Positions 26,502 to 28,462 of a DNA stretch of 64,000 nucleotides are shown here, piece after piece. Each line of letters opens with the position of its first letter. The stretch's first letter is position 1. Under the pieces are notes generated by a model that was not told the DNA's origin, made no database searches, and was given only the letters and a program-made list of their open reading frames with translations. The stretch spans positions 186,001 to 250,000 of the forward strand of contig NZ_JAFBBD010000001.1 of the NCBI RefSeq assembly GCF_016906995.1, in the 5' to 3' direction. Both the position numbers and the translations under genes were made by a program. Source of the stretch: Spongiibacter marinus (GTDB taxonomy: Bacteria > Pseudomonadota > Gammaproteobacteria > Pseudomonadales > Spongiibacteraceae).

Positions 26502-27425
26502 ATGGGAACACAACAGGAAAGTGTCGCGGTTATTGGTGCCAGCGGCTTTATAGGCCAGGCACTGTGCTGCCAACTGCTCGCTCAGGGCTACGAGGTGCAC
26601 GCGGTGGGTCGCTCGAAGGCCCATTTACAAGCAATTTTTGGGGAAGGGCAAGCTGACATCCAGCTGCATGATTACAGCACCTTGCGTGAGATCGACGCCC
26701 ATATCGTGGTGAATCTGGCCGGGGAAAACATTGCCGCAAAGCGATGGAGCGCACAGCAAAAAGACCGACTACTGAGCAGCCGCCTCTCAGCGACCGAGCA
26801 AGTAAACGTCGCGGTAAAACACTGGCCGTCACTTCACACCTTCATCAATGCATCGGCGATCGGCATTTATGGCGATGGCGGTGACAAAGCGCTCAATGAA
26901 AATTCCCCAATTGGCCGAGGATTCTCTGCTGAACTTTGCCAACGCTGGGAAGAGAGCATCAACAGCCCCTGCCGGACCATTATCGCCAGGTTTGCGGTCG
27001 TGCTGGACAGAGACAGAGAGGCAGGCGCTCTGGCGAAAATGCGGCCGGCCTTTTCACTCGGTGTTGGCGCCTACTTCGGCCACGGCAAGCAGTGGCAGGC
27101 CTATATCCATCGCCATGACGCCGTTAAAGCGCTGCTCTTTTTGATTGAGAACAAGGAGTTAGAGGGCGCATTCAATATCAGCGGGCCCGAGCCTGTCACA
27201 AATCGCGAGTTCAGCCAGTTACTGGCAAATAAACTGCGGCGGCCCCTGCTGTTTTCAATTCCTGAATTTGCCGCGAAGATCCTGTTTGGAGAAATGCGGG
27301 AGTTATTCTACTGCTCCCAACGCATTATTCCTGACGGCTTACTGAGGGCAGGTTTTTCCTTCGACTTTCCCACCATTGACCGTATGCTCGACGATGCGCT
27401 CCAACACCCCGACCGTCACCAGTAG
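26502..27425 (+). CDS. TIGR01777 family epimerase (YfcH/SDR39U1-like)
   Basis: Atypical extended SDR, 307 residues. It has NAD(P)-binding GASGFIGQAL (11-20), NLAGENIAAKRW (about 70-81, the TIGR01777 signature) and NASAIGIYGDGG. A C-terminal DUF1731-type end reads PEFAAKILFGEMRELF. The family's substrate is unknown; E. coli YfcH is a member. It begins 22 bases after the SRPBCC-SDR gene and probably shares its transcript. TIGR01777 proteins elsewhere are themselves fused to SRPBCC domains, so this pair looks like a rearranged version of that theme. Confidence 0.88.
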   Translation: MGTQQESVAVIGASGFIGQALCCQLLAQGYEVHAVGRSKAHLQAIFGEGQADIQLHDYSTLREIDAHIVVNLAGENIAAKRWSAQQKDRLLSSRLSATEQVNVAVKHWPSLHTFINASAIGIYGDGGDKALNENSPIGRGFSAELCQRWEESINSPCRTIIARFAVVLDRDREAGALAKMRPAFSLGVGAYFGHGKQWQAYIHRHDAVKALLFLIENKELEGAFNISGPEPVTNREFSQLLANKLRRPLLFSIPEFAAKILFGEMRELFYCSQRIIPDGLLRAGFSFDFPTIDRMLDDALQHPDRHQ

Positions 27426-27490
27426 ACGATGTCTCACATTATCTCGCTCTGATCTCGTCTGGTGGCAGAACGAGGAAAAGCTATGATGAA

Positions 27491-27703
27491 GGTGTCAAGG
27501 ATGACACCGGTGCATACAAGGACGTATCGCACCACTTGGGTTTTCTGCTAGGCAGTGAAACACCACATTATGCAGAGACGGCTTTGCAGCTCTTTCCCAA
27601 ACTATGCACAATGGCGGCGTTATACCATCGCTCAGCAAAAGCTCCCTGAGGCACTATCTCCGATCTAGAAAGAATTCACCCCAGCGAACACTGGGGTTTT
27701 TTT
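27491..27703 (+). ncRNA. Candidate CsrA/RsmA-binding small RNA
   Basis: Intergenic stretch of 341 bases (27426-27766) with no credible gene. Two tandem hairpins present the CsrA recognition core in six-base loops. The first is GGTGTC-AAGGAT-GACACC (27491-27508). The second is GGTGC/ATAC-AAGGAC-GTAT/GCACC (27509-27533, one bulged C). The second reads ATACAAGGACGT, one mismatch from the SELEX consensus RUACARGGAUGU. A TATGAT box at 27482-27487 and the terminator at 27679-27703 could bound a transcript of about 210 bases. Only two loop GGA sites are clear, fewer than in RsmY/RsmZ. No GacA-type upstream site is evident. Confidence 0.5.
27679..27703 (+). terminator. Rho-independent terminator
   Basis: CCCCAG / CTGGGG with a six-base loop followed by seven T. 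It is 254 bases beyond the TIGR01777 stop, more than needed to end that operon, which is one reason to suspect a separate RNA gene. Confidence 0.92.
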
Positions 27704-27766
27704 ATTGGGGGTAAAATGCCAATAAGAGCTCTCTGAGCACCCGCACAAAAGAGCCCTTATCTTCGT

Positions 27767-28462
27767 TTACTTGCCTTTAATGCCCAGCAGTTCCACTTCA
27801 AAAACCAGTGCCGCATTGGGGCCAATCATCTGTCCCGCGCCACCAGGGCCGTAGGCCAGGTCAGAGGGGATAAACAGTTTCCACTTGGAGCCAACCTTCA
27901 TCATCTGCAGCGCTTCAGTCCAGCCCGCGATCACACCATTCACCGGGAAGCTTACGGTTTCACCCCGCTGATAGGAGCTGTCAAACACGCTGCCATCCAG
28001 CAATGTTCCCTCGTAGTGCACTTCTACCGTGTCACTCTCGCTCGGGCTCGCGCCATCTCCTTCTGCCAGTACCTTGTATTGCAGACCGCTGTCGGTGACG
28101 ACAACACCCTCGGCAGACGCATTTTCTGCCAGAAATGCCTCAGCTTCTTTACGGTTTGTTTCAGCCAGGGCCTGAGATTCCACCTGACGTTCGGCCATCT
28201 GCTTTTGCTGGTAAGCCTGCAGCGTTGACATAATCTCTTCATCGCTCATTTTCAGCTCACCGCCGGCAATGGCGTCGCGTACACCCGCGCTAAATGCATC
28301 GACATCCAGCGGTAAGTCGTCGCCGAATCGCGAACCAATATTTGCGCCAATTCCGTAGCTTACCTTCGCAATCTCGGAATCTAATGATGGTTCAGAGTTA
28401 TTGCCACCGCAGGCAGCCAGCAACCCGCTCATTACCACCGCACCCACTACTGTTTTTTTCAT
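27767..28462 (-). CDS. FKBP-type peptidyl-prolyl cis-trans isomerase, FkpA/Mip-like lipoprotein
   Basis: 231 residues. A lipobox (LLAAC, Cys18) indicates a lipoprotein. The N-terminal helical dimerisation domain (about 28-115, KVSYGIGANIG...) contains a long charged helix. The FKBP domain (about 120-229) has VEVHYEGTLLDGSVFDSSY, VIAGWTEALQMMKVGSKW and LVFEVELLGI. It catalyses proline isomerisation and acts as a periplasmic chaperone. Divergent from the algP-like gene; an FKBP gene also neighbours algP in P. aeruginosa. The upstream gap contains several nested inverted repeats. Confidence 0.92.
   Translation of the reverse strand: MKKTVVGAVVMSGLLAACGGNNSEPSLDSEIAKVSYGIGANIGSRFGDDLPLDVDAFSAGVRDAIAGGELKMSDEEIMSTLQAYQQKQMAERQVESQALAETNRKEAEAFLAENASAEGVVVTDSGLQYKVLAEGDGASPSESDTVEVHYEGTLLDGSVFDSSYQRGETVSFPVNGVIAGWTEALQMMKVGSKWKLFIPSDLAYGPGGAGQMIGPNAALVFEVELLGIKGK

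Follow-up and report, generated by a model that had tools for sequence, protein, structure and literature searches.

Two tandem hairpins and their surroundings

The window, a stretch of 64,000 nucleotides (nt) from the genome of Spongiibacter marinus, holds two tandem hairpins of the CsrA-binding type, which lie between an epimerase gene and a convergent FKBP-type isomerase gene, with an intrinsic terminator after them (Table 1). Sequence comparison makes it very probable that the region 27491-27703 is the gene of an auxiliary, GacA-activated small RNA (sRNA) antagonising CsrA. An sRNA had already been proposed here by the first-pass annotation, and the evidence pointing to one is that 15 of the 18 genus genomes have the hairpins, with the FKBP gene as their neighbour in 14 of these 15, that both ANGGA sites keep their A and their GGA without exception, that a GacA-box position and a -10 element stand upstream at a near-fixed distance, and that a script detected a terminator in 14 of the 15 homologues.

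Table 1. Features of the locus, in window coordinates, and the second predicted sRNA gene of the genome
Feature	Position	Strand	Remarks
Upstream gene, NAD-dependent epimerase/DUF1731 protein	26502-27425	+	
Degenerate GacA box AGTAGACGATGTCTCACA	27421-27438	+	Matches TGTRAGN6CTYACA at 9 of its 12 defined positions; CTCACA, the downstream half-site, is complete; overlaps the epimerase stop codon
-10 element TATGAT	27482-27487	+	TANNNT in 15/15 homologues; holds the ATG of a 22-codon frame
Hairpin 1 GGTGTCAAGGATGACACC	27491-27508	+	CsrA-type, GTCA-AGGA-TGAC core; predicted RNA 5' end at ~27490-27494
Hairpin 2 GGTGCATACAAGGACGTATCGCACC	27509-27533	+	CsrA-type; differs from the CsrA SELEX consensus by one base
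Linker from hairpins to terminator	27534-27677	+	Poorly conserved; much shorter in several congeners
Intrinsic terminator ACCCCAGCGAACACTGGGGT, then T run	27678-27697, T run to 27703	+	Predicted RNA 3' end
FKBP-type peptidyl-prolyl isomerase gene	27767-28462	-	Convergent; synteny anchor
Second predicted Rsm-type sRNA gene, perfect box TGTGAGATATATCTCACA	G000:C1:170709-170792	-	Loci L173/L182; ~43 kb before the window element, same contig

The basic anatomy given by the first-pass annotation stands: sequence and minimum free energy (MFE) fold agree on the two tandem AAGGA hairpins, the terminator that it set near 27703 was located, and the gap that it called gene-free contains no open reading frame (ORF) of at least 60 amino acids (aa) within 27426-27766. 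The MFE fold of 27490-27540 includes both hairpins (-21.9 kcal/mol, z -3.94), and none of 200 shuffled sequences folded as well. The annotation had drawn a six-base AAGGA loop in each hairpin, with which the MFE fold agrees for the second (AAGGAC) and not for the first, drawn as an AGGA tetraloop on a stem of seven base pairs (bp). The consensus obtained for CsrA by systematic evolution of ligands by exponential enrichment (SELEX) is RUACARGGAUGU, usually presented in a six-base loop with AC-GU closing pairs on a short stem (PMC7652899). As the annotation had stated, the context of the second loop, ATACAAGGACGT, differs from this consensus by one base.

Hairpins with ANGGA loops are common in the window, where the 15 that a scan found on the + strand include one tandem pair (27491-27533) and the 19 on the - strand no such pair. 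Markov-resampled 64-kb sequences of the + strand held 18.25 such hairpins on average, and 6 of the 60 simulated sequences contained one or more tandem pairs. Taken alone, the tandem pair is thus weak evidence that chance could have produced; it becomes significant because it is conserved among relatives.

Conservation of the hairpins, the box position and the promoter

Conservation was followed in the Spongiibacter/Zhongshania/Neomelitea group (the genus for our purposes; 18 genomes, own included) with R1, a covariance model of the hairpins only. Such a search of relatives had been suggested along with the first-pass annotation, and R1 finds the hairpins in 15 of the 18 genomes, own included, at 45.5-69.7 bits; 12 of these matches are its training sequences, and the three independent ones, in G014, G012 and G006, score 52.8, 51.3 and 45.5 bits, while none of the three genomes of the sister genus matches. 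At the DNA level, 11 of the 145 genomes searched, the own one among them, have matches at E <0.001; at E up to 1 the number is 103, mostly through short chance matches. The DNA match is full length in the own genome and in G013, covers 27445-27538 in G007 and is elsewhere confined to the hairpins (~27494-27536).

The FKBP gene adjoins the hairpins in all homologues but that of G003, whose contig ends first, and the other flank carries an epimerase gene in five, a short-chain dehydrogenase/reductase (SDR) gene in nine and neither in one (G001). R1 was also given 49 further loci (43 of the 80 loci of one set, and six from an FKBP search covering nine genomes). It matched strongly in five, from Neomelitea salexigens, Spongiibacter thalassae, Zhongshania marina, Z. 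aliphaticivorans and Zhongshania sp. BJYM1, and at about 12 bits in two others; there was no match at the loci of Zhongshania aquimaris, S. pelagi and a Zhongshania metagenome-assembled genome, the contig of the last ending soon past FKBP.

Within the 15 homologues, the variable base of the ANGGA motif is A or G at the first site and any of A, G, C and T at the second, its A and GGA being constant, a pattern that fits what is expected of CsrA sites. The second hairpin reads ACANGGATGT in 11 homologues and ACAAGGACGT in the other four, own included, and its site is in every case at most one base away from the SELEX core ACARGGAUGU. Only two clear sites had been counted at the outset, and two loop-exposed ANGGA motifs are indeed what all 15 homologues conserve: the predicted RNA has the two hairpin GGA and no other in 10 homologues, and three to six GGA in the other five (the length of the G012 RNA being assumed). 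Predicted lengths range from 71 nt in G015 to 211 nt in the own genome and G013, with at most 100 nt in 6 of the 14 homologues for which the script found a terminator.

The first-pass annotation had listed the lack of a GacA box among its weak points, and this objection falls. The upstream activating sequence of GacA is TGTAAG-N6-CTTACA, located at -75 for rsmY (PMC4950607), and every homologue has a box-like sequence beginning 73-74 bases ahead of hairpin 1, the window copy being the degenerate one of Table 1. The right half-site CTYACA is matched at five or six of its six positions in all 15, and over the whole R/Y-relaxed box, scored out of 12, G016, G017 and G006 reach 11, three more 10, the own genome, G013, G015 and G014 9, G007, G002 and G011 8, G001 7 and G012 6. 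The mean score over 13 of the 15 genomes peaks at -74 with 8.0, a value reached by none of 5000 cyclic-shift controls, whose best position never exceeded 5.85; G013 and G011, near-identical to the own genome and to G002, respectively, were left out of this test and of the identity calculation below. Sites scoring as high or higher occur elsewhere in the 250 upstream bases of G011 (9 at -166), G001 (8 at -121), G012 (9 at -27) and G002 (8 at -249), so that in these four genomes the individual box is no proof, the shared position being what counts. Among the same 13 genomes, mean pairwise identity stands at 0.27 ahead of the box, rises to 0.56 over the right half-site, falls to 0.37 across the spacer, and amounts to 0.53 for the -10 element and 0.93 for hairpin 1.

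Regulators, a second sRNA gene and searches further afield

Both host factors expected of a Gac/Rsm-type system, CsrA and GacA/UvrY, are encoded in the genome. CsrA is represented by three loci over the cut-off (L001-L003), two of them very similar in their core; the third has diverged and carries a short insertion (MLILTRRIGETLICDDNGKLVEVTVLG...). The GacA/UvrY homologue is 50% identical to UvrY of E. coli and is directly followed by uvrC (53% identity over 486 aligned residues), the same gene order as in E. coli. One GacA box with a single mismatch (L175:1501-1518, i.e., G000:C3:298848-298865) lies within an aspartate-kinase-like ORF, ~250 bp ahead of a csrA gene, and is probably due to chance; a GacA box upstream of csrA1 has been reported in Marinomonas (PMC8523701).

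GacA boxes with at most one mismatch number nine per strand in the own genome versus ten for a reversed-pattern control, so that the set as a whole is no larger than chance would give. A single box is perfect; it belongs to the second predicted sRNA gene (Table 1), about 100 nt long, equipped with a terminator and placed directly after an ORF of 88 aa. All 18 genus genomes have this sister gene, with three to five GGA in the first 64 alignment columns. It resembles the window family in its GacA box, which starts 75-76 bases before the T of the first TC(A/T)NGGA (74-75 in the window family), in a first hairpin of the GTC-AGGA-GAC kind and in its terminator. It differs from the window element in that the box is a perfect or near-perfect palindrome in most copies, in its three to five GGA and in its presence in all 18 genomes. 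R2, the covariance model of the sister sRNA, does not match the window element, and the two predicted RNAs share their layout, not their sequence. A likely homologue of the sister gene occurs in another family (L235, in G085, with the box TGTGAGATATCTCGCACA, at 33.1 bits), and the sister loci L182 and L187 have no Rfam match at the gathering score.

R1 was also run on 390 genomes of the order and 369 of the class with strict filters that lose weak matches, and outside the genus nothing exceeded 29.1 bits. In the order, 11 genomes of other genera matched at E up to 0.01, in 13 places scoring 23.2-29.1 bits, of which we judge eight by eye to look non-homologous. In the class, besides the own genome, G685 alone matched, at 27.2 bits, and in the plasmid collection there was no match. 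Several of the places hit in these searches hold structures of their own. L134 (G117, same order; R1 25.6 bits) has numerous AAGGA hairpins and looks like an RNA of the Rsm type. The minus strand of L138 (1501-1557, G265; 24.0 bits) shows tandem AAGGATG loops and that of L217 (1501-1556, G685) tandem AGGGA loops; from their sequences, both are possible further CsrA-binding RNAs, in genomes only distantly related. L132, L140 and L141, all in G384 of the same order, are three copies of a dispersed repeat with two (A)AGGGA-type hairpins (GTCCTATGCCAGGGATGGCATCGGTAGCGTACAGGGACGTATTCACAGCGCC and variants), possibly an interspersed element resembling tandem CsrA sites.

The sole Rfam match of the whole window at the gathering score is a tRNA, with no Csr/Rsm family; the region 27380-27780 gives five matches at E up to 10, none of them Csr/Rsm, and no sub-threshold Csr/Rsm match falls over the window homologues L115 and L116. 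RF00166 (PrrB_RsmZ; gathering score 44 bits) exceeded its cut-off in 0 of 21 genomes of the family, and the 20 weak RF00166 matches inspected contain zero to two A(N)GGA each and look by eye like terminators or coding sequence. For five loci searched at E up to 5, the sub-threshold matches are chance-like, and RF00166, RF02144 and RF00084, below gathering, appear in L134 only. The literature search found no text joining Zhongshania with a small RNA, nor Spongiibacteraceae named with sRNA or GacA among the matches listed; Spongiibacter and CsrA came together in one paper, on type II secretion in Legionella. Earlier sRNA predictions were reportedly made by Kulkarni and colleagues (2006).

Interpretation, rival readings and known systems

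We infer the following course of events. Phosphorylated GacA/UvrY would bind the box and activate the promoter with its -10 element, and an RNA of ~210 nt would begin at hairpin 1 and end at the terminator. CsrA would be bound by the two exposed ANGGA loops, most simply as one dimer with one site per subunit, and would thereby be titrated away from mRNAs. The window RNA would act as the auxiliary partner of the second GacA-box sRNA, as CsrC does for CsrB.

Several points weigh against this account. The element conserves only two CsrA-type sites, and RgsA, an RNA with a single ANGGA, did not titrate, several motifs being said to be needed (PMC2375449); because such an RNA failed and RNAs with at least two GGA bind CsrA, two sites would be near the lower limit. 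The seven-pair stem of hairpin 1 in the window exceeds that of most SELEX winners, which have four or fewer contiguous pairs (PMC7652899). The left half of the window box is degenerate, and the boxes of G001 and G012 are worse still; since the window copy also overlaps a stop codon, GacA control may be weak in S. marinus. By the rule of the promoter scan there is no sigma-70-like site, i.e., no recognisable -35. The helices lack compensatory changes, 9 of their 10 pairs being invariant, so that covariation neither supports nor contradicts the fold. Kinship among the genomes inflates every conservation count. Finally, the hairpins are lost in three of the 18 congeners (G004, G009 and G010), which retain the FKBP gene and are therefore a sign that the element is dispensable; by eye, the gap is short in G004, a decayed remnant is left in G009 and the flank differs in G010. 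Loss of the AAGGA loops beside standing flanks had been named with the first-pass annotation as an argument against an sRNA, and it applies to these three genomes, the loops being kept in the other 15.

Among the rival explanations, the least improbable, though still an unlikely one, places the hairpins in the 3' untranslated region (UTR) of the upstream epimerase/SDR mRNA, from which a CsrA-binding RNA would be processed, as proposed for RsmW of P. aeruginosa, described as 3'-UTR-derived (PMC4950607). The gap does follow a + strand gene, no terminator was detected between that gene and the hairpins, and the window box overlaps the gene's stop codon, but the -10 element and the box position keep their near-fixed distance in 15 of 15 genomes, and the upstream gene changes from epimerase to SDR or neither while the hairpin element stays the same. 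A mainly base-pairing sRNA, in which CsrA binding by the hairpins is secondary (a McaS-like dual function), seems more doubtful again: what is strongly conserved are the two hairpins, and the linker diverges, leaving no conserved seed. We give slightly less credit still to a conserved structured element unrelated to CsrA, serving another RNA-binding protein or acting as DNA. The helices without covariation would suit it, but the motif changes at N and never at A or GGA, the second site stays within a base of the SELEX core throughout, and the GacA-box position is present, with the same promoter layout in the sister sRNA gene. Last, the 22-codon frame at 27483, which the annotation had noted with a ribosome site overlapping the hairpins, has an ATG and a plausible ribosome site here, but that ATG falls within the conserved -10 element and is found in 3 of the 15 homologues, and no + strand gene of at least 60 aa precedes the terminator, so that a translated leader peptide is rejected as extremely improbable and the frame is probably accidental.

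The sRNA reading, which we retain, also displaces two suggestions of the first-pass annotation. A CsrA-controlled leader fails because no + strand gene stands between hairpins and terminator and the next gene is convergent. The supposed new type is a new sequence family, yet one within the known class of GacA/UvrY-controlled CsrA antagonists. Judged on sequence, the element looks like a free-standing non-coding gene with its own terminator and its own promoter, in which no -35 was recognised; it has two loop-exposed ANGGA sites conserved in all homologues, and the upstream activating sequence is recognisable through its genus-wide position. It thus reads as a new member of that class, unusually small and without an Rfam match, rather than as a new type of system. 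Neither the sequence nor the copy number of Csr/Rsm sRNA genes is conserved, which makes these RNAs difficult to find (PMC8523701). For the Spongiibacter/Zhongshania group, the likely output of the Gac/Rsm system would now be a pair of sRNA genes whose coordinates and promoters are given. Since some homologues are little beyond two sites and a terminator, the family offers a natural test of the minimum number of CsrA sites needed for antagonism. More speculatively, the RNA may be a one-dimer CsrA decoy, i.e., a minimal, independently promoted two-hairpin RNA (71-100 nt predicted in six congeners) serving as a low-capacity, fast-saturating partner of a larger Rsm RNA; its target might then be a particular one of the three CsrA paralogues instead of the bulk pool.

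Compared with known systems, the window family shares with RsmY, RsmZ and RsmX of Pseudomonas (Rfam RF00166, RF02144 and kin) an upstream GacA-type box, ANGGA hairpin loops, an intrinsic terminator and the presence of more than one such RNA per genome. It differs from them in having no Rfam match at gathering and in being as short as a predicted 71 nt in one congener, and from RsmY, for which seven GGA are reported (PMC4950607), in its two conserved sites. With CsrB and CsrC of E. coli it would share UvrY-type activation, paired RNAs and CsrA titration, whereas CsrB has 22 GGA (PMC7652899) and the window has no Rfam match to the CsrB/CsrC families. McaS and GadY, too, are small CsrA-binding RNAs, which carry two or more GGA and have been put forward as antagonists (PMC7652899); unlike the window RNA, in which no conserved seed was seen and for which a GacA-box position is present, they are base-pairing sRNAs.
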